Assembly: GCA_001913845.2 (NCBI GenBank)
Contig: MKGP02000048.1
Span: forward strand, 1-64,000
DNA: 64,000 bases
Direction: 5' to 3'
Origin: Limnothrix sp. CACIAM 69d
Lineage (GTDB): Bacteria; Cyanobacteriota; Cyanobacteriia; CACIAM-69d
Shown here: positions 1 to 12,493 of the stretch, in pieces
Numbering within the stretch: the first letter of the stretch is position 1
How the letters are laid out: the number at the start of each line of letters is the position of its first letter
The notes under the pieces: model-generated
What the model saw: the letters and a program-made list of their open reading frames with translations, nothing else
What the model was told of the DNA's origin: nothing
The model's database searches: none
Made by a program: the position numbers and the translations under genes

Positions 1-12
1 AAAGCAAGTTGT

Positions 13-260
13 GTGCTCAACGCCTTACGGCATCAGAGGTTTGGGCACGCGAGTTTGGGCACTTCCCCCAACGTTGCCAAAATCTGTGCTCAACGCCTTA
101 CGGCATCAGAGGTTTGGGCACGGTATTTTCCAGCAGGTCAACCGCTGCATGGATGTGCTCAACGCCTTACGGCATCAGAGTTTGGGCACGCGTGGGGACT
201 GGTATTTAACGGGTTTCCACTTGCGTGCTCAACGCCTTACGGCATCAGAGGTTTGGGCAC
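13..260 (-). CRISPR. CRISPR array, leader-proximal end (4 repeats, 3 spacers visible)
   Basis: Repeats lie at 13-48, 86-121, 155-189 and 225-260. Three are identical 36-mers; the one at 155-189 lacks one G before TTTGGGCAC and is 35 nt. Spacers are 49-85 (37 nt), 122-154 (33 nt) and 190-224 (35 nt), and bases 1-12 are the end of a further spacer, so the array continues beyond the window. Read on the minus strand, the repeat starts GTGCCCAAACC and ends GGCGTTGAGCAC, with a short GCC-GTAA-GGC stem-loop. The cas genes run toward the array on the same strand, so the leader should lie at 261-522 and the 225-260 repeat should be the newest. Spacer targets cannot be told from here. Confidence 0.97.
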
Positions 261-522
261 CCCGCCGCCCGAAACCCTTACGGGACAAGCGCCGAAATGC
301 AACCTTACAAGCATCTTACCCGATCGCCCCCCGATCGCCCCGAAAGCTGCAAACAATTGACATTTTCCCGATCGCCCAAGCCTTGCCCCACAAGCCTTCC
401 AGCCATTTACAAGCATCTCCAATCCCCCCAAAGTCCCCCAAACCCAGGCCCCAAAACACCTCCAGCTCCCGCGAAACCCGATCGCCCCGCCACGGCCAGA
501 GGTGCTTGTAAAATCCCCAACC
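261..522 (-). promoter_or_regulatory. probable CRISPR leader
   Basis: This is the non-coding stretch between the cas2 stop and the first repeat. It is C-rich on the plus strand. The 11-mer TTACAAGCATC occurs at 305-315 and again at 407-417, 102 bp apart, and a partial inverted copy (GTGCTTGTAA) lies at 504-513. The position upstream of the newest repeat in the direction of transcription is what identifies it as leader. No promoter hexamers stand out clearly enough to be called. Confidence 0.6.
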
Positions 523-2554: not shown

Positions 2555-2645
2555 TTCACCTCTGAAATGGATGGGGTTGATCAGATTGGGCCAGCAGTTT
2601 TGTTCTTTTCTGCTCTGCTCAACGCCAAAGGGCATCAGAGGTGAA
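2555..2645 (-). promoter_or_regulatory. repeat-derived 5'-UTR element able to mask the cas4-cas1 ribosome site
   Basis: At 2616-2642 the sequence matches positions 2-28 of the CRISPR repeat at 24 of 27 bases without gaps. All three differences fall in the loop (TTAC becomes AAAG), so the GGC/GCC stem is kept. Immediately beside it, TCAGAGGTGAA (2635-2645) is the exact reverse complement of TTCACCTCTGA at 2555-2565. On the minus-strand RNA the second arm contains GAGGUGA, the Shine-Dalgarno of cas4-cas1, six bases before its AUG. An inner AGCAG/CTGCT stem (plus-strand 2592-2613) adds a second hairpin. The structure is read from the sequence; the regulatory role is inference. Confidence 0.7.
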
Positions 2646-2754: not shown

Positions 2755-3213
2755 TTAGCTCAAGTCGGGCGCATCAAATTGATCGGAATTGATCACAAAT
2801 TCCCAATCAAAGGGTGATGCTGAAGGCACGAGATTTTCCTCATAATCTTCCAAACCCATTTCATCGATCGCCAACAATCGCCCCAACTCATAGGCTTCGG
2901 CAAACGCTTCCGAGATCACTGGTTGCAAGCTGGGATTTTTGGTCAGCAACTTGCGAATTTCCAAGCGCTGCACCCGAATGGTAGTCATCCACGATCGACT
3001 TTGGCGATCGGGTTGATAGCGCCACTTCAACAGATGCCCCAACAAAATTCGCAACCGGTTGACGAGTTCCTTGCGTTCCTGTCGTCCCATGCTTTCAATT
3101 TCGTCTGCCAGTCGTTCCCAGTCGATCGCTGCCCCATTGCGATCGCGCAGCAGGGCGGCCTGGGCGATCGTCCAGCCATAGAAATCGGTGTCGTAGGCGC
3201 TGTTTTCCGTCAC
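2755..3213 (-). CDS. DUF29 family protein inside the cas operon
   Basis: A protein of 152 residues with the DUF29 pattern: an N-terminal YDTDFYGWTIAQAALLRDR stretch, then IDWERLADEIESMGRQERKEL, and a helical segment LGHLLKWRYQPDRQSRSW. DUF29 proteins are common in cyanobacteria and have no established function. It begins at a GTG that overlaps the cas5 stop by 4 bp, so it is translationally coupled to the effector genes. It lies between cas5 and the adaptation genes. Nothing catalytic can be pointed to. It could be a passenger or an accessory factor; the coupling favours co-expression but does not prove a role in immunity. Confidence 0.85.
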   Translation of the reverse strand: MTENSAYDTDFYGWTIAQAALLRDRNGAAIDWERLADEIESMGRQERKELVNRLRILLGHLLKWRYQPDRQSRSWMTTIRVQRLEIRKLLTKNPSLQPVISEAFAEAYELGRLLAIDEMGLEDYEENLVPSASPFDWEFVINSDQFDAPDLS

Positions 3214-3878
3214 GTCTTCCGCCCTCCTTTAACCGGTTTCGCCGTGGGTTGACCATTGATCGTTACCCAAGCGCGATCGTCAAAATCGGCAGCTTCAGTC
3301 AGTGAAAAGCGCTGAAAGGTTCCTCTGGTGGTTGTGCGATCAATCCAGACCGGCAACCCAATCAAGCCCCTTGCATCTTTAATCAGCCAGCGCACAGGGC
3401 CATCGGTTTCCCGATAGAGCCGCATTCCATTCACCATTGCCCAAGATTCGCCGAGGCTCAAGCCACCAAATCGACGAATTTTTTCAGGTGTTGTGAGGGC
3501 GATTGAAAGGCGATCCAATAATCCAATAGTCGCTAATTCCTGGCTGGAATCCACCCGCAAAACCAGCTTCAAATCAGTCAGAATTTCTTGAAAATTGGGT
3601 TTAGAAAACTGACTGGTTGGATAATTGCCCAGATGTTGCTTGCTGAACTTATGGTGGCGCTGTTTTCGCAAAATTCGTGAAATGGGTGGTGCTTGGCCAA
3701 TTAGCCCGATCGCCAGTTGCACACCGAGATGCGCCGTCATATCTTCTTCGCCCACCAGCGACAAAAGAAATCCATAAACCGTCGAAGGCGGTGGGTATTG
3801 GTAGGTTTCCTTATAGTCCCTGGCAAAGCTGCGTGGAAAGCTGGTGCAAGGACAATCCAAATAGAACCAGTTGTTCAT
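3210..3878 (-). CDS. cas5: Cas5 (DevS/Cmx5-type Cascade subunit)
   Basis: A 222-residue protein with the Cas5 N-terminal RAMP strand (NWFYLDCPCTSFPRSFAR) and the family signature YPPPSTVYGFLLSLVGEED. Cas5 caps the 5' handle of the crRNA in the Cascade surveillance complex. The sequence most resembles the DevS/Myxan type rather than Cas5 of I-E or I-C. Its ATG overlaps the cas7 stop by one base (TAATG), and its own stop overlaps the next gene, so cas7-cas5-DUF29 form a tightly coupled unit. Length is in the usual range. Confidence 0.92.
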   Translation of the reverse strand: MNNWFYLDCPCTSFPRSFARDYKETYQYPPPSTVYGFLLSLVGEEDMTAHLGVQLAIGLIGQAPPISRILRKQRHHKFSKQHLGNYPTSQFSKPNFQEILTDLKLVLRVDSSQELATIGLLDRLSIALTTPEKIRRFGGLSLGESWAMVNGMRLYRETDGPVRWLIKDARGLIGLPVWIDRTTTRGTFQRFSLTEAADFDDRAWVTINGQPTAKPVKGGRKT

Positions 3879-4744
3879 TAGGCAATAATCCCCGCTGCTT
3901 TTAGTTGTGTTTTTGCAGCATCCTTGGCAGCTTTTACGCCATCAAAAACAGGAGCTCCCAAACTCTTGAGGGTTTCTCCATAGGGCGTTTTGGCAATCTT
4001 ACCCCCAATGATTAACTCTTCGGGGTTGATATCGCCCGCCTCCAGTAGTCGAATCAATTCTGGGCAGCCCACCTCTTCTCCAACGCGCTTGAAGCAACCC
4101 ATAATCCAAGGGCTGGGATCTTCAGTAATTCGCAAGACGATCGATTCCGGTCGAAATTCATACAGGAACCGCGAGTGATTGCCACCCACGTGGCGAACAC
4201 CCACCAGCGCTTCCAAAAAAGCGGCAGCGCGATCGGGCTTTTTCAGGTGCTCAGGAGTCAGGGCGATCGCATACTGATAAGCCGTGTTGTGCATTTCTGT
4301 GTTGTGAATTGAGGTGCTGCCTTTTTCACCCCCCTTGGAACCAAAAGCAATATCACCCCAGTAGGGATCAAGGCTGATCGCGCGGCTAACTTCTAATGCA
4401 CCACGACGCTTTTCAGTGGCGTTTTTGTTGTCCTTGTCCTTCTTCGCATCCATGTAGCCAAACAAGTCATCATCAATGAACTTTTCAGCGCTGTGTTTTT
4501 CGTCCTTGATATCGTACTTGTCGCGATCGGGGTCAAATGTTCGATTGACTTCCTCGGCTGCGAAATGATGCTGAAAATATTCCCGATAGCCCCAACGAAT
4601 GGCATCAGCACTGACCGTGGTGTATTGGTCATTGCCTCGTGTGATCTTTTGGAGTGTAGCCAAAGTGCTACCGTCACCTTCACCTCGGTTATTCGCCGCG
4701 ATCGCAGTGGGAGTGACAATATTGGCAAACAAATGCTTAGACAT
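3878..4744 (-). CDS. cas7: Cas7 (DevR/Cst2-type Cascade backbone)
   Basis: A 288-residue Cas7 of the DevR/Cst2 family. The N-terminus MSKHLFANIVTPTAIAANN, the segment ITRGNDQYTTVSADAIRWGY, and the later HVGGNHSRFLYEF are typical. Several copies coat the crRNA spacer and form the Cascade filament; in Myxococcus the homologue DevR also feeds back on dev operon expression. An internal Lys/Asp-rich segment (DAKKDKDNKN) is a likely loop. The ATG is preceded by CAGAGGA, and this ribosome site, within TCAGAGGA, shares 7-8 bases with the CRISPR repeat in the complementary sense. Confidence 0.93.
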   Translation of the reverse strand: MSKHLFANIVTPTAIAANNRGEGDGSTLATLQKITRGNDQYTTVSADAIRWGYREYFQHHFAAEEVNRTFDPDRDKYDIKDEKHSAEKFIDDDLFGYMDAKKDKDNKNATEKRRGALEVSRAISLDPYWGDIAFGSKGGEKGSTSIHNTEMHNTAYQYAIALTPEHLKKPDRAAAFLEALVGVRHVGGNHSRFLYEFRPESIVLRITEDPSPWIMGCFKRVGEEVGCPELIRLLEAGDINPEELIIGGKIAKTPYGETLKSLGAPVFDGVKAAKDAAKTQLKAAGIIA

Positions 4745-4798: not shown

Positions 4799-6301
4799 TT
4801 ACGAAAAATTGTATTCAAAGCCTTCTGAGTCTTCCTCTGGCTCGATCTCATCCACACTCAAATCAGGATCGCCCGACCCTTCGATCGTCTTTTTCTTGTA
4901 GGTTGCGATCGCCAACAGTGCCAAATCCCGAGCCTTCCGCCAGTTATCGCCAGTGTGCAGCCAAGCATAAATCTCTAAGCCTTCCCCCTTCGCTGTGGAA
5001 GGGCGATACTGAGCCAGAAAGTCAACCAAAGCCTTAGCAAATTCTTGCTGAGTGGCTGGTCGTTGCAAGCGATAAATGGCCTTATCAGCACTCCGTTTAG
5101 CAACATCCCAGCCTTGCTCCTGGGTTAAATTGCCTCCCATTTGATCAGATCGAGCCTTAAATTGTCCTGCTCGAAATTTACCGAAAGCATCATGTACCGA
5201 TTGAAAAAGTAGCCGCTCTGATTCCGAAAGAAATTGTGTCATTTTGGCTAATCCTTGACGTTCAAACAGTTTATTTTTCTTGAGAAACTCGAAAAATCCC
5301 GAGTACCAAGGGCGATCGCCAATTAAGTTATCAGCAATCCAAGGTAAAGCCTGGGACGTTGCTAACCAAGTCTGTCCCTTATCCATCGTGCGAAAGCGAA
5401 CAGGAAAGAATTGCTCGGCACTTGCATAAATTTCCAAAACTTTCTCATTAGTTTTCACTCGATAAACAGCCTGCTTGAGATAGTTTTGATTTTTATCCCA
5501 AGCCTGCTTACCCAGTTGGTAAACTTCGCAGTACTCAAGCCCTAAAAGTTGCCCATTCTCCACAGTCTGCTGCTGAATCAAAAATCGCAATCCCGACTCA
5601 CCCGCTCCGCCCGCTTTGAACTTGATGTAGGGCGTTCCAGCGGACTTACGGCGCAGCCGAACCCAGTTCTTGAGATTTTTGACTTCAGGGATGACTAAAG
5701 CCGATCGCCCCGCCGGTAAGGCGTAATACCCACAACTTAAGGGCAAAAAAAGCAGCGAGACAAAACCAACCGGCGATTCGAGATAGGGGCCATTGACAAA
5801 ACACTCCACCAAGCCTGGTAGATGATGCCCCTTGATGGGAATTTCATCCTTGAACTTACCTTTAGAGGTGAATGCGTCCTTAAAGTCACCCGTGTAATAG
5901 CAATCGAGCAAATCTTTATAGGAAAGCTCAATTTCTGGTTGAGTCTCATCAATCAAAAAATTCAGCGATTTTGGCTGTTTTTCAAGCGTTCGCTGCTGGT
6001 TATGTTGAAGCAAGGTTGAAGTCACACCTTGGGTGAAGGTATAGCGACTTTGGCGATCGAGCTTCAGAACGGGTGGATTGAGATAGCCGTCTTCAATGCA
6101 GTAAGTCTTGTGGGTCAACCACTCGATCGCCTCGCGATCGCTCCCCTCCCAAGACAGCCGAACTTCATCAGCCGTCACGAGCCACGTGAGAGGCGCATCA
6201 TCTGGGGAGATTGCTGACAAAGCCAACGCCAGGCCAGCAATCCCCGCCCGATGTGGCAGGAGCGTATTGGGATCAAGCAGAGATAGTACGAGATCAGTCA
6301 C
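4799..6301 (-). CDS. cas8a1: Cas8a1/Cmx1-type large Cascade subunit (DevT-like)
   Basis: A 500-residue protein with the N-terminal pattern of Myxan Cas8a1/Cmx1: residues 1-60 contain LLDPNTLLPHRAGIAGLALA and SWEGSDREAIEWL, followed by KTYCIEDGYLNPPVLKLD. Cas8 recognises the PAM and recruits Cas3. It begins with a GTG preceded by AAGGAG. It is separated from cas7 by 54 bp and lies 24 bp downstream of the small helix-turn-helix gene. The C-terminus is acidic (DEIEPEEDSEGFEYNFS). Family assignment rests on the N-terminus and on gene order; the middle is divergent, as usual for Cas8. Confidence 0.88.
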   Translation of the reverse strand: MTDLVLSLLDPNTLLPHRAGIAGLALALSAISPDDAPLTWLVTADEVRLSWEGSDREAIEWLTHKTYCIEDGYLNPPVLKLDRQSRYTFTQGVTSTLLQHNQQRTLEKQPKSLNFLIDETQPEIELSYKDLLDCYYTGDFKDAFTSKGKFKDEIPIKGHHLPGLVECFVNGPYLESPVGFVSLLFLPLSCGYYALPAGRSALVIPEVKNLKNWVRLRRKSAGTPYIKFKAGGAGESGLRFLIQQQTVENGQLLGLEYCEVYQLGKQAWDKNQNYLKQAVYRVKTNEKVLEIYASAEQFFPVRFRTMDKGQTWLATSQALPWIADNLIGDRPWYSGFFEFLKKNKLFERQGLAKMTQFLSESERLLFQSVHDAFGKFRAGQFKARSDQMGGNLTQEQGWDVAKRSADKAIYRLQRPATQQEFAKALVDFLAQYRPSTAKGEGLEIYAWLHTGDNWRKARDLALLAIATYKKKTIEGSGDPDLSVDEIEPEEDSEGFEYNFS

Positions 6302-6325
6302 AAGACGCTCCTTAACTTGATTCGT

Positions 6326-6553
6326 TTAGGCAATGTAGACGCGCCAGTAGTCTGAACCCTTTCGGTGGCCGGCATATTCGATCTGTGCCGTGGCCCATTG
6401 GCACGGCCAAAGCAGTGGCAACCGTTTCTGATGTTTGGCCTTATTCAAGGTGCTGCGGGAGATACCGACTTCCGCCACAACTTGCGCGGTTGAGATCGGC
6501 CAAGCTTCTTTTGGAGGAACATCACTCCAGAAATTCAGTTGCTTGGGAGGCAT
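6326..6553 (-). CDS. small helix-turn-helix protein of unknown role
   Basis: A 75-residue protein starting MPPKQLNFWSD. Residues about 20-48 read as a helix-turn-helix (STAQVVAEVGISRSTLNKA), and the C-terminal GSDYWRV segment could form a wing, as in MerR- or excisionase-like proteins. The ATG at 6553 is chosen because GGAG lies 9-10 bases upstream; an in-frame ATG at 6568 and a TTG at 6586 are alternatives. It sits 24 bp before cas8 on the same strand and downstream of an 18-bp direct-repeat pair. It is not one of the standard Myxan cas genes. I infer a DNA-binding regulator of the effector operon; no function is proven. Confidence 0.7.
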   Translation of the reverse strand: MPPKQLNFWSDVPPKEAWPISTAQVVAEVGISRSTLNKAKHQKRLPLLWPCQWATAQIEYAGHRKGSDYWRVYIA

Positions 6554-6619
6554 GACACTGTGCTCCATGCGAAACAGTGCGCTCAATATAGCGCAATTTT
6601 TTGCTGCTTCGCTTATAAC

Positions 6620-6668
6620 AAGCTAACATTTTCAAAAACTCCGCACTAGGAAGCTAACATTTTGAAAA
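6620..6668 (-). promoter_or_regulatory. paired 18-bp direct repeats, candidate operator
   Basis: AAGCTAACATTTTCAAAA at 6620-6637 and the same sequence with one change (C to G) at 6651-6668, exactly 31 bp apart, about three helical turns. They lie 67-115 bp upstream of the small helix-turn-helix gene in the only AT-rich part of this gap. Two close copies of one site on one face of the helix suit dimer binding by that protein or another repressor. A perfect 6-bp stem (AGACAG/CTGTCT, 6675-6693) follows. The role is inferred from position only. Confidence 0.55.
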
Positions 6669-6705
6669 TTCTGAAGACAGTTAAGAGCTGTCTAGGCTGC
6701 ACGAG

Positions 6706-6790
6706 CTACTCAACGCCTGAAGGCGATCAGAGGAAATGGCGCTGCGCGCAGCTAGCAAGCTAAGTGCCCAACGCTTAGGAGCGATAGCGG
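6706..6790 (-). repeat. degenerate two-repeat mini-CRISPR between cas3 and the HTH gene
   Basis: The first pseudo-repeat, 6709-6733, matches repeat positions 4-27 at 22 of 24 bases plus one inserted G; both substitutions are in the loop and a CGCC/GGCG stem is kept. The second, 6764-6790, begins GTGCCCAACGC and matches about 20 of 27 with small indels and the same inserted G. Both have the same orientation as the real array. Starts are 58 bp apart compared with 69-73 in the array, so the enclosed pseudo-spacer is short. A 12-bp palindrome (GCTGCGCGCAGC, 6741-6752) lies between them. The layout resembles CreA/CreR-type crRNA-like regulators. Confidence 0.6.
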
Positions 6791-6814
6791 GCAAATCCAT
6801 TCTACGGTTTATGC

Positions 6815-9082
6815 TCATCGCTTTTTAGCTCCTCGATCTGCTGTGTAATCCCACTCCTTGATTGGGGCGATCAGATAGCCTCCATGTCGCTTCCACTGAC
6901 TCACCGCCTTAACAGATGCAATCAGCGGCACAGTGTATTCCCCTAGCTTGCTGTGCGGCAGATTACCCCACGTTGCTTGGTGCTGTTCCAGCAAGGCCGT
7001 AACCGTCATACCTGCCTCGCGCACGGGAGCCGGATAGGTTCGCCACTCGCCATCCAGCAAAACAAAATCCTTTTCTGGTTCAATTGCCTTCGATTCTTGT
7101 TCCAACCATCGGGCTAAATCCCCTTGGCTGACCTCCCCCGGACAATCCCGAATCAAAGCCCAGCCTCGTGCCTTCGTTTCCTGGTTGTAGGGAAGAATTT
7201 CCGGGTCGTCATAAAACACTGCATCTAGGGCGTGGCCGCAATAGCGACGGTTGAGCCGCCCCAATCGTTGAATCAGAGCTGCTGGTTCAGCAACTTGTGA
7301 CACCAGCAACGTCGCCGACAAATCCAACGACATTTCCGCCACCTGGGTACAAATGGCCAACACAGGCTCGTGGCAATCGTCTTTGAAAGCCGCAACTACG
7401 TGGCGATGGTGCTGGACTCGATCGCGATAGCAAAAACGACTGTGATAGAGCACGGCATTTAACCCCCGCTTGAGGGCGCGATCGTACACATCGATCGCCG
7501 TATTCACCTGGTTACAAACCCAGAGAACTTTGCCACCCGATTTCAGTTCATTTTCAACACGCTCCCAATCTGGTTCTTGGCTTTCATGGAACCGATAACG
7601 CCGTAAATCTTCCAGATCGCGCGGCCCAGCAATCAGATTTTCACCTTCAATCAGTCGCCCCCCGCTTACCCACTCGATCGCCCGTATTTGCCAGGGTAAA
7701 AACGAAGCTGACATCAACAATATTGGCGCTTTAACAGTTTCCAGAAATCGCAAAAGCGCCCCAAACAGGCCTTTGTCATAGCAATGCACCTCATCAAAAA
7801 TAAAGGCTGCATTGGCGATCGCCGGAAAACAATACATCGGTCGCCGATTGCATTGCATCAAACCCAAAACCGTATCAACCGTACAGATAATGACTTGACT
7901 TTCCCAAGCTTCAAAGGACTGAAGTTTTAGTGTGGCCTCGTTTTCTGTGTTATCGCCGGCTTCTCGCTCTTCACCCGTACTGGCCAGGTCGATCGCTGCT
8001 CGCGAGTGCATCAAAACTGATTCCACTTCATCTTGCACATAGTCGATGAATCCCTCAGTGCTGGTTCCTGTGGTGGGATAACAGAAAAAGAGTTTCCGAC
8101 CGATCGCGTGACGCTTGGCCCAGTTATATGCCCCAACAGTTTTGCCCGTTCCACAACCAGCCCGCACCAAGCCAACCTGCGAGGAAATATCACCAATAGA
8201 CTTCTGAAAATCTCGAAGCGCTTTCCCCTCTAGACGAACATTAATCACACGATCAAGATCTACTTCCGTCAGTCCTTTCTCAATTGACTCAATAATCCAA
8301 TGTTCTAAATTTAAATCAGTGCTAGAAATTGCCGACCCAATAGAGTCACCCGCCACCAATAGCGATTTAACTACCGCATTTAAGACAATATTTGGCTCCC
8401 AGCTTTCCAAGGCTTGCTTATAAATTTCAAGACGACGATTTTCGATGTCCGACAAAACCCATACACTCTCAGGTTTGGAAGCAAACTTAATCTGTTTAGG
8501 GAGTCCCAATTCTGAGGTTCCAAATTTCAAAAGACCTTTGAAATCGTGATGTAGTGGGTAAAGAAATAAGCGATCATCTCCTGTTTCTGTGCGAACTTCC
8601 CCGACATTATTAGTCTTTTTTCCTTGATTGCCACCTAGTTTCAGGTGATGCCCACCAGCCGCAGCAAGAGCTACTAGAAAATCACCGTCAGACTGCTGCA
8701 ACCAGTCCCGAAACTTCCAAGCCAGTAAAATGGACACAATTTCATGGCGTAGAAGCTGGGGATACTTCAATGGGTTTCGTTGCGGACTTGCACCGACCAT
8801 TTTCTGACGGACAACTCCTTGAAAATGGTGATTCGCTTTGCCCCAATCGTGAATATAGGCAGCCAACCGAGCCGTCGATCGCACATAAGCCAAATCACAC
8901 CCCAGATCAAATTGAGTCATGAGTCGATCGCCCAAGACATCAACCAATGTCGTCACGGCCCGAACAACATTGGCCGTATGCCCAACTAAGCTATAAGCAC
9001 CTTTCCATGGCTCTTCTACAGATTTGGCCAGCAAGCGATCGGGGACAAGCTTAGGAACTGATTGACTAAATTTAGACGACAT
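6815..9082 (-). CDS. cas3: Cas3 nuclease-helicase
   Basis: A 755-residue protein. The N-terminal HD nuclease has GHTANVV near residue 35 and IHDWGKANHHFQ with His78-Asp79. The superfamily 2 helicase follows: Walker A GCGTGKT at about 309-315, DEVH at 430-433, and motif VI IQRLGRLNRR. Cas3 is recruited by Cascade and degrades the target strand. Start ATG at 9082 (MSSKFSQ) overlaps the cas6 stop by 11 bp, which favours it over an upstream in-frame start that would run 74 bp into cas6. HD and helicase are in one chain, as usual. The degenerate mini-CRISPR begins 24 bp after its stop. Confidence 0.95.
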   Translation of the reverse strand: MSSKFSQSVPKLVPDRLLAKSVEEPWKGAYSLVGHTANVVRAVTTLVDVLGDRLMTQFDLGCDLAYVRSTARLAAYIHDWGKANHHFQGVVRQKMVGASPQRNPLKYPQLLRHEIVSILLAWKFRDWLQQSDGDFLVALAAAGGHHLKLGGNQGKKTNNVGEVRTETGDDRLFLYPLHHDFKGLLKFGTSELGLPKQIKFASKPESVWVLSDIENRRLEIYKQALESWEPNIVLNAVVKSLLVAGDSIGSAISSTDLNLEHWIIESIEKGLTEVDLDRVINVRLEGKALRDFQKSIGDISSQVGLVRAGCGTGKTVGAYNWAKRHAIGRKLFFCYPTTGTSTEGFIDYVQDEVESVLMHSRAAIDLASTGEEREAGDNTENEATLKLQSFEAWESQVIICTVDTVLGLMQCNRRPMYCFPAIANAAFIFDEVHCYDKGLFGALLRFLETVKAPILLMSASFLPWQIRAIEWVSGGRLIEGENLIAGPRDLEDLRRYRFHESQEPDWERVENELKSGGKVLWVCNQVNTAIDVYDRALKRGLNAVLYHSRFCYRDRVQHHRHVVAAFKDDCHEPVLAICTQVAEMSLDLSATLLVSQVAEPAALIQRLGRLNRRYCGHALDAVFYDDPEILPYNQETKARGWALIRDCPGEVSQGDLARWLEQESKAIEPEKDFVLLDGEWRTYPAPVREAGMTVTALLEQHQATWGNLPHSKLGEYTVPLIASVKAVSQWKRHGGYLIAPIKEWDYTADRGAKKR

Positions 9083-9791
9083 TAGGAATTTCCTTGGAGG
9101 GATAGAACCAACCACAGCCAAAGTGCTTTCGCCCACCAATACCAACAGACTGGAGCAGAATCGAGTCTTCAGGACTCAAATCTTCAATAATTACGCCATA
9201 GCCCAAAATATGTTTTCCCTTGACCTGCAATGATCGCAGGGCCAAATCACCATCTACATCACTATCAATAGAAAGTTTTCCTGAAATTCCCAGCTTCTCA
9301 AATGCTTTGCGGCACGATTCTAAAAAATGTACTGGTGCGCTGTGAGTATCCCATTCTTCTAAGCGGAACGTCACGAGTCTTGCCCGTAGCGTAGAACTAG
9401 GCTCAGGCAGGATTAAACGTGGTTGAATCAGGCGAATATCATGACTGCGCAGATTTAAAACCTGATTTTGCAAGAGTCGATACCAATAGCTAGCCTGATC
9501 GCTAGGACAGCGTAAGCGCAATCGCGATCTCTGATAAATCTGGATACGTTTATGCCCATCAGAAATTCCAGGAATGCTACTTAGTAGTAACTCTGGACAA
9601 AGTAAGTAATCAACAATTTCTGTTTTCCAATTCTCTGAGCTAGGAAACTGTTTTTTGAATAATGCGATCAAGCTTTCTGGCAGTGCTTCACTTTGCAAGA
9701 GTTGCTTAACTGCTGAGTACAGCGAATAGCCGTGATCGGCTGGCAGTAACTGCCCTTTGACGGAAAATTGGACTTCTAGAATGTTGCTCAT
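9072..9791 (-). CDS. cas6: Cas6 (Myxan-type pre-crRNA endonuclease)
   Basis: A 239-residue Cas6. The C-terminal glycine-rich loop GIGGRKHFGCGWFYP is the RAMP signature, preceded by the second ferredoxin fold. Cas6 cuts the repeat transcript at the base of its stem and leaves the 5' handle on crRNAs. The N-terminus (LEVQFSVKGQLLPADHGYSL) is like Cmx6 proteins. ATG overlaps the stop of the WYL gene (ATGA), and its stop overlaps cas3, so WYL-cas6-cas3 is one coupled unit. The same enzyme would be expected to recognise the pseudo-repeats, whose stems are kept. Confidence 0.92.
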   Translation of the reverse strand: MSNILEVQFSVKGQLLPADHGYSLYSAVKQLLQSEALPESLIALFKKQFPSSENWKTEIVDYLLCPELLLSSIPGISDGHKRIQIYQRSRLRLRCPSDQASYWYRLLQNQVLNLRSHDIRLIQPRLILPEPSSTLRARLVTFRLEEWDTHSAPVHFLESCRKAFEKLGISGKLSIDSDVDGDLALRSLQVKGKHILGYGVIIEDLSPEDSILLQSVGIGGRKHFGCGWFYPSKEIPNVV

Positions 9792-10786
9792 CGTTCAAAG
9801 GTCTCCGTTTCGTATTGGCGTTGCATGATCTCCACCTCCCGCGCGATCGCCCTGACCAGTTCCGGCGGCTCCCGGGCGATCGCCCCCTTGCCATAGCTCA
9901 ACACCCACTGGGTCACATCCCGTAAGCCGCTGACCTCCATCGACAGCAACAGCCCCCCACCCGGCAAATCGGTCAAGTCCTGGGTGCTGTGCCACTGCCG
10001 CCCGCGCACAAAAGGAGCCGTTGCCCGATCGAACTCCACCACCACCCGCCGCGCCGTGTCGCCCACCTCCCAGCGAAAGGCCGTCGCCATGTACTTGCGT
10101 AGGCTGAATCCCGGCTGAACCTGGAAAGGCTGCTCTAGCACCTGTAATTGCAAAATGCGATCGACCCGGAACGTAATCACCTTCTGGCGCTGGTGGCAAA
10201 ATGCCAGCAATTGCAGTGCGTTGTACTGCACCAACATGCCGTAGGGATCCACCACCCGATCGCTCACCGCATCCCGATTAGCTGTGTGGTAGGTTATTTC
10301 AGCGCTGTAGCCATCCCGACAAGCCCGCTCTAGCTGACTCACCACCGCCAAGTCCAAGTTCAAGTCGGCCTTGCTTTGGAATAGGAAGTAATCGTTGCGC
10401 AGTTCACGCGCCTCGATCGCCACCTTGCTGTCCAGCCGTTCACTCAGCCGCCGCAAGCCCGATCGCAACTGCCGGATATAGGGCGAATCCGCATAGGTTT
10501 CCAGCAATCGATCGGTCACCACCAGCGCCAACAGATCGCCTTCCGTAATCAGGATTTGATTCAGTTGCCAATCGGGGTCGCTGTAGTGATGTCCCCGACG
10601 ACTGTTATAGATAATCGGTGCGCCACAGTCTTTTTTAAGAAAGCCTAAGTCCTTGCGAATAATGCGCGGATCGACAGCGTTGTCACGATCAAGGGCCGCC
10701 GCTAGGGATTCATGGGTGTTTCGTCGTTGGGGATCTCGCAACAAACCATCGAGCTGCAAAATGCGCTTGAGTTGGTGAAGCGTCAT
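9788..10786 (-). CDS. WYL-domain transcriptional regulator of the cas operon
   Basis: A 332-residue protein. Residues 1-80 form a winged helix (LHQLKRILQLDGLLRD, then RIIRKDLGFLKKDCGAPI), and the middle and C-terminal parts carry a WYL domain (VVDPYGMLVQYNALQLLAFCHQR) and a C-terminal extension. WYL proteins bind nucleic-acid ligands and commonly regulate CRISPR-Cas and other defence loci. The ATG at 10786 is used; a GTG at 10822 would add 12 residues. It is the first gene of the cas6-cas3 unit and overlaps cas6 by 4 bp. I infer that it controls cas expression; the ligand is unknown. Confidence 0.88.
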   Translation of the reverse strand: MTLHQLKRILQLDGLLRDPQRRNTHESLAAALDRDNAVDPRIIRKDLGFLKKDCGAPIIYNSRRGHHYSDPDWQLNQILITEGDLLALVVTDRLLETYADSPYIRQLRSGLRRLSERLDSKVAIEARELRNDYFLFQSKADLNLDLAVVSQLERACRDGYSAEITYHTANRDAVSDRVVDPYGMLVQYNALQLLAFCHQRQKVITFRVDRILQLQVLEQPFQVQPGFSLRKYMATAFRWEVGDTARRVVVEFDRATAPFVRGRQWHSTQDLTDLPGGGLLLSMEVSGLRDVTQWVLSYGKGAIAREPPELVRAIAREVEIMQRQYETETFER

Positions 10787-11004
10787 GATTGAAGATTTTG
10801 TGAGGAATTGAACGTTGCTCACTGAACCCAGTGTGGCATGTTTCTCGGGGACTGGGGAGGCCTAAATCGATCCACCCTGGCCACTTGATTGCAAGAAATG
10901 CCCCTAGCCGATCGCTCGGATGGCAGCATGAACGGGCGATCGATGGCCAAGCCAGACAGTCGCCCTAAACTAGGAACAGTTCGCCCATTCCCCAGCCCGT
11001 TCCC

Positions 11005-12387: not shown

Positions 12388-12493
12388 GTTGCGATCGGCT
12401 GCCATCAATTTTTGCTCAATGGCTGCTGAGGAGGCGCTGAAGGATTGACCGAATTTTTCGAGCAATTGGCTCGATCGCATTTTGAGCTAAGAA

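Follow-up and report, generated by a model that had tools for sequence, protein, structure and literature searches.

Three kinds of guide that resemble CRISPR RNAs (crRNAs; CRISPR, clustered regularly interspaced short palindromic repeats) and act with the CRISPR effector Cascade are already known. CreR is a crRNA-like autorepressor of cas operons (reviewed in PMC12737573): a degenerate mini-CRISPR in the cas locus whose protospacer-adjacent motif (PAM) and seed pairing bring Cascade to the cas promoter, and which, as reported, in general has no toxin gene coupled to it (PMC12737573). CreTA (PMC8501985, PMC9458426) has the layout psiR1-psiS-psiR2, in which only psiR1 retains the Cas5 handle, and its seed (positions 1-5 and 7-11) matches a site behind a TTC PAM in the promoter of a neighbouring small toxic RNA. 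In CrePA, a protein toxin with a crRNA-like antitoxin (reviewed in PMC12737573), Cascade and the crRNA-like RNA silence a small protein gene, typically one with a KilA-N domain. Here we describe a related mini-CRISPR inside the type I-B2 cas operon of Limnothrix sp. CACIAM 69d, in a 64-kb stretch of DNA (positions 1 to 64,000, hereafter the window) whose minus strand carries the array and all cas genes. Its sequence, and that of its relatives, makes it likely that the locus is a CreR-like autorepression of the Cascade genes, in which a small helix-turn-helix (HTH) protein is co-repressed through a CreR/CreA-type guide RNA.

The mini-CRISPR spans 6706-6792 on the minus strand, between the cas3 stop and the small HTH gene, and is composed of the following parts, with a hairpin beyond them:

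6764-6792, minus strand: psiR1, the first degenerate repeat (GCCCGCTATCGCTCCTAAGCGTTGGGCAC), with a compensated 4-bp stem and an intact 5' handle, GTTGGGCAC.
6743-6763, minus strand: psiS, the 21-nucleotide (nt) pseudo-spacer (TTAGCTTGCTAGCTGCGCGCA), which starts with TTAGCTTGCTAG at 6763 reading downwards; its first 11 nt are the seed.
6706-6742, minus strand: psiR2, the second degenerate repeat (GCGCCATTTCCTCTGATCGCCTTCAGGCGTTGAGTAG), with the stem CGCC-TTCA-GGCG kept and the handle degenerated to GTTGAGTAG.
6676-6692, minus strand: a GACAG-N7-CTGTC hairpin past psiR2, read from the sequence, a weak candidate for the end of the guide transcript.

The initial annotation had placed here two repeat-like copies in the orientation of the array, separated by a short pseudo-spacer, and this description holds. 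The better copy, said to have kept its stem through a changed loop, is psiR2, which reaches a local alignment score of 35 against the array repeat, compared with 29 for the next-best place in the 64 kb (the array and a copy at 2613 set aside). On sequence alone psiR1 has a local score of 19, which is background; its stem CGCT/AGCG replaces the TGCC/GGCG of the array repeat, a compensatory change, and RNA folding gives an array-like hairpin for both copies. An element matching psiR1 stands at the same place in eight other loci, and its handle is common to the window and the loci L037, L054, L070, L076 and L078, being off by one base in L038. The retention of the handle in psiR1 and its loss in psiR2 match the description of CreA (PMC9458426). 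The terminator scan did not call the GACAG-N7-CTGTC hairpin as a terminator.

The pseudo-spacer finds its partners in the promoter region of the small HTH gene, where the direct repeat TTTTNAAAATGTTAGCTT, which the initial annotation had not described, occurs in two minus-strand copies containing two target sites:

6646-6660, minus strand: target site T1, an ATG PAM followed by TTAGCTTCCTAG, seed match 9/10, mismatch at position 8.
6615-6629, minus strand: target site T2, an ATG PAM followed by TTAGCTTGTTAT, seed match 9/10, mismatch at position 9, just upstream of the putative -10 box.
6585-6590, minus strand: TATATT, the putative -10 box of the HTH-cas8-cas7-cas5 unit.
6326-6553, minus strand: gene of a small winged-helix HTH protein of 75 amino acids (family A), the first gene behind the targeted promoter.

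Both matches start at position 1 of psiS, immediately behind the ATG, and T1 is the single best match to the PAM plus 15 nt of psiS across the 4.57-Mb genome. The ATG fits the AYG preference that was measured with a type I-B Myxan Cascade of Synechocystis 6714 (PMC11096372), whose Cas8 subfamily is not exactly that of the window. AYG sites of the quality of T1 and T2 are expected by chance about 0.07 times in the whole window and about 1e-4 times in the promoter region; T1 and T2 are the only ones found. The locus thus shows the degenerate, crRNA-like unit outside the array, and the PAM and seed match to its own cas-operon promoter, by which CreR is recognised, as well as the CreTA-type match of seed positions 1-5 and 7-11 in a neighbouring promoter, with one mismatch per site. 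The initial annotation had pointed to the promoters of both the HTH gene and the WYL regulator gene as possible targets; the first carries the two sites, while the WYL promoter has no psiS site of 7/10 or better and is not a target. The HTH gene lies where it had been placed, and its likely start, by alignment of homologues, is the ATG at 6553. The -10 box was proposed from the sequence and from similar boxes (TATATT/TATACT-like) that follow the targets in L038, L078 and L082; a consensus promoter scan of 6300-6850 gave no full sigma-70 site.

Very strong evidence for the guide comes from comparison with relatives. We sampled 386 cyanobacterial genomes, 23 of them with a relative of the Cas8, and a genome collection contributed 33 further loci; no Cas8 relative was found in viral contigs. 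In most loci cas8 starts within about 45 nt of cas3, and in nine (the window, L037, L038, L054, L070, L076, L078, L080 and L082) a cassette occupies this junction. Eight of the nine cassettes are intact, that of L070 being decayed, and each intact one consists of psiR1-psiS-psiR2 followed, ahead of a small gene, by ATG and the seed of its own psiS, on the same strand for the HTH family and on the opposite strand for an unrelated family B. A cassette is also present in a cultured relative, Baaleninema simplex PCC 7105. The psiS sequences are unrelated between loci, yet each fits its own promoter behind ATG. In a permutation test of the eight cassettes, the true pairing of guides and targets scored 86 against a mean of 48.4, a value reached by 1 of the 40,320 permutations, and ATG was the best-matching PAM among all 64 trinucleotides in 8/8. 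An unbiased scan of 8,304 handle-like sites gave, outside arrays, scores of at least 11/12 only for cassette guides and for guides of a sister clade (the window and L038 scored 9 and L044 scored 10); with shuffled spacers, at least 11 was reached in 2/19,640. On the Cas8 tree the cassettes are scattered, with nine changes for nine cassettes, so that the guide-target pairs are largely independent, by repeated gain or loss. These comparisons, together with the promoter match beside a PAM, argue strongly for the Crre/CreA/CreR-like guide proposed in the initial annotation.

As a side observation, a short open frame (for example MMNLCIALMPEGVGHR) that starts at the cas3/cas8 junction runs through psiR1, and in most loci it has a ribosome site of its own; it was seen in L037 (5684 onward), L038, L054, L070, L076, L078, L082 and the window (6818 onward, minus strand), and is possibly a leader peptide or a relic of an old cas8 start.

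The pairing itself carries a signature. Over 13 loci, the seed matches in 13/13 at positions 1-4, 11/13 at position 5, 6/13 at position 6, 13/13 at position 7, 11.5-12.5/13 at positions 8-10, 9/13 at position 11 and 3.5/13 at position 12; position 6 differs from positions 1-5 and 7-8 with a Fisher p of 8e-6. Including positions 6 and 12 in the score leaves the chosen sites unchanged, except for the choice between two equivalent sites in L049. Every sixth base is not read by type I Cascade. Published CreA guides pair at positions 1-5 and 7-11 (PMC8501985). On their sequences, the window and its relatives thus display the Cascade pairing signature known from CreA. A search for the PAM from real spacers (three arrays against a phage collection) returned one low-identity match only, which was unusable.

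A sister I-B2 clade (L044, L045, L046, L048 and L049) bears its mini-CRISPR upstream of cas6, and there psiS matches an ATG site in the cas6-cas3-cas8 promoter. In L045, L046 and L048 the guides came from a search for the sequence that best matches the promoter site anywhere in the 20-kb locus, and in each the highest-ranking match is preceded by GTTGAGCAC or GTTGAGCAG; in L046 the mismatches within 16 nt fall only at positions 6 and 12. In L049 a single guide has a site both before cas6 and before an HTH gene that belongs to the window's family, which ties guide, HTH gene and cas control together. The guides of this clade measure 93 nt from the handle to the second stem in L044, L046, L048 and L049 and 100 nt in L045, and their pseudo-spacers are about 30 nt longer than the array spacers. 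Four of these loci also have an extra repeat-like hairpin (GATGCC..AGGTTTTGA) just before the cas6 start codon (near 5998 in L044, 10980 in L045, 3763 in L046 and 6315 in L048, with cas8 in plus orientation), a sequence arrangement suggesting that Cas6 may bind or cleave its own mRNA leader. In the window's clade, the first gene of the operon encodes a WYL regulator in most loci; none was found in the sister clade, which has the upstream guide instead, and this suggests that regulator and guide are alternative control layers.

The genes on which the proposed circuit would act, or depend, are arranged as follows:

9788-10822, minus strand: WYL regulator gene, the operon head.
9072-9791, minus strand: cas6 (cmx6), the presumed guide-processing enzyme.
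6815-9145, minus strand: cas3, the upstream neighbour of the mini-CRISPR.
4799-6301, minus strand: cas8 (type I-MYXAN/I-B2), 24 nt past the HTH stop.
3878-4744, minus strand: cas7, a member of the proposed repressed unit.
3210-3878, minus strand: cas5, a member of the proposed repressed unit.
5-268, minus strand: the canonical array, with the repeat GTGCCCAAACCTCTGATGCCGTAAGGCGTTGAGCAC.

The sequences themselves show how the guide is built, its PAM and seed match, how guide and target covary in relatives, and that the target lies upstream of a gene; from them we infer the processing and loading of the guide, the repression, the co-transcription and the role of the HTH protein. The guide would be transcribed leftward, probably by read-through from the WYL-cas6-cas3 unit, and Cas6 would cut the transcript at the two degenerate hairpins. 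Through the conserved handle, GTTGGGCAC, the processed RNA would be loaded into the I-B2 Cascade, and the ATG PAM and partial seed pairing would direct the complex to the two tandem sites in the promoter of HTH-cas8-cas7-cas5, cas8 being probably co-transcribed with the HTH gene. Because pairing is confined to the seed, it should permit binding without efficient cutting by Cas3, and Cascade would then act as a repressor. Plentiful free Cascade would shut down the synthesis of new Cascade subunits and of the HTH protein, and the unit would be released once real crRNAs titrate Cascade or something such as an anti-CRISPR disables it. The HTH protein itself most likely adds a second regulator to this loop, at the level of protein.

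Several observations weigh against this CreR-like autorepression. Each window site has an internal seed mismatch (position 8 or 9), and a single seed mismatch abolished CreA function in a test of the Halobacterium hubeiense CreTA (PMC8501985); repression may therefore be weak unless both sites act additively. Being copies of one another, T1 and T2 are not independent matches. The window guide measures 49 nt from the handle to the second cut, compared with 58-66 nt in its relatives. To these are added the difference in Cas8 subfamily from the Cascade whose PAM was measured, and the possibility that the cas3 transcript also serves for cas8.

The main rival to autorepression, which we nevertheless consider unlikely, is a toxin guard similar to CrePA or CreTA, in which the guide silences a harmful small gene and loss or inhibition of Cascade releases the product, stopping the cell. 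The published precedents of CreTA and CrePA speak for it, as do the classical toxin-antitoxin pairs that I-B2 operons host between cas7 and cas5. Moreover, two unrelated small-protein families occupy the same slot under the same guide architecture, as expected of an exchangeable payload. Family A comprises HTH proteins of 75-90 amino acids (the window, L038, L054, L080, L082, the decayed L070, and L049); a profile search found G213 and G284 plus a cas-free relative in G081, although the window protein as a single query found no homologue in the 386 genomes. Family B (L037, L076 and L078) is predicted to be helical, from a low-confidence model; its profile matches other than G294 were weak (E about 1e-3), lay mostly inside long open frames and were rejected. 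Neither family matched a known toxin family, and a KilA-N domain was found in none of Pfam, PHROGs, NCBIfam or PADLOC. The window model has a confident core (predicted local distance difference test about 90) with two helices and a three-stranded wing, as predicted for a winged-helix DNA binder. Its closest structural neighbours are excisionase (Xis-like) and MerR-type DNA binders, at a weak Z of about 3.5 that is suggestive only, and a Foldseek search gave no significant fold match. Against a toxin guard, then, stand this predicted DNA binder without KilA-N or toxin match, a targeted promoter that faces cas8, and a sister clade that aims the same kind of guide at a cas promoter, with no small gene found in four of its five loci. 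The small gene coupled to the guide also bears on the CreR trait of lacking a toxin gene, its HTH product having no toxin-family match, and the conserved 75-amino-acid protein as first product of the targeted unit speaks against an RNA toxin as in CreTA.

A combination of the two ideas may be put forward, tentatively. The built-in guide and Cascade could silence a dedicated small DNA-binding protein together with the Cascade genes, so that once Cascade is inactivated, as by an anti-CRISPR, a switching or killing protein is set free. Such a double lock, so far undescribed, would be a general sensor of Cascade integrity with an exchangeable output, of the HTH or the helical family.

It is rather improbable that the element is a decaying relic, an old mini-array whose working guide is no longer made in the window genome. 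The mismatches in both seeds, the short spacer and the background-level psiR1 would fit such a history, and L070 shows that cassettes do decay. However, handle and HTH frame are both intact, the altered stem is compensated and both stems fold; T1, too, is the best PAM and seed match genome-wide.

We give very little credence to the view that the HTH protein uses the direct repeats at 6615-6660 as its operators and that they resemble psiS by coincidence or common descent. Tandem copies upstream of a DNA-binding protein gene do look like operators, and the copies reach 5' beyond the psiS match (TTTTNAAAATG); yet the matches begin exactly at spacer position 1 behind ATG, as they do in seven other cassettes of unrelated sequence, tandem target sites also precede the non-HTH small gene of L076, and the chance expectation for the promoter region is low, as given above. 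Equally hard to sustain is the proposal that the hairpins are merely Cas6 cleavage sites separating the cas3 and cas8 mRNAs, which suits their location exactly at the junction and the repeat-like hairpins in the cas6 5' untranslated region of the sister clade, but leaves the spacer-target match, the PAM and the conserved handle unexplained.

CreR-like autorepression, as proposed here, differs from the described systems in several respects. Unlike in CreR, the guide of the window's clade lies inside the operon, at the cas3/cas8 junction, the first repressed gene would be that of a conserved small HTH protein, and the system belongs to type I-B2 of cyanobacteria. Unlike in CreTA, the product of the target gene is a conserved protein and not a small toxic RNA, and the PAM is ATG instead of TTC. 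Unlike in CrePA, the gene has no KilA-N domain and stands directly in front of cas8-cas7-cas5. No description of a cyanobacterial I-B2 version in which the cassette is internal and an HTH protein is co-repressed was found in the literature examined, a coverage that excludes the original CreR report.

The surrounding system is of type I-B2 (I-MYXAN). Family searches at the locus identified Cas2, a Cas4-Cas1 fusion of the MYXAN kind, DUF29, Cas5/DevS, Cas7/DevR, Cas8/Cmx1, Cas3, Cas6/Cmx6 and the WYL protein, including the Cas8/Cmx1, DevR-type Cas7, DevS-type Cas5, Cmx6-type Cas6 and Cas4-Cas1 fusion that define the type, and the nearest solved Cas8 structure (8fcj) is annotated as type I-B / I-MYXAN. 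The DUF29 gene (2755-3213, minus strand) lies between cas5 and cas4-cas1, and was not at that position in the other loci examined. Between it and cas4-cas1 there is a lone, well-kept repeat copy (ACCTCTGATGCCCTTTGGCGTTGAGCAG, 2615-2642, minus strand), its stem retained and its loop changed; L044 likewise has one before cas4-cas1, near 12395 (cas8 in plus orientation). As a candidate second guide the window copy was rejected, since the spacer following it gave no PAM match of at least 10/12. At the cas7/cas5 junction of type I-B2 operons, toxin-antitoxin pairs recur, assigned by reading the sequences rather than by family search: RelE/ParE-like in L038, L039, L042, L064, L070, L076 and L085, MNT/HEPN-like in L040 and L060, and PIN/VapBC-like in L041 and L055.

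To conclude, the locus offers a phylogenetically replicated and testable example, from cyanobacteria, of a CRISPR effector that would repress the transcription of its own genes, in which RNA-guided autoregulation would be linked to two small protein families of unassigned role. Its natural guide-target pairs read out the ATG PAM and the seed rules, with flipped positions 6 and 12, of the type I-B2 Cascade, relatives of which are also used by CRISPR-associated transposons.
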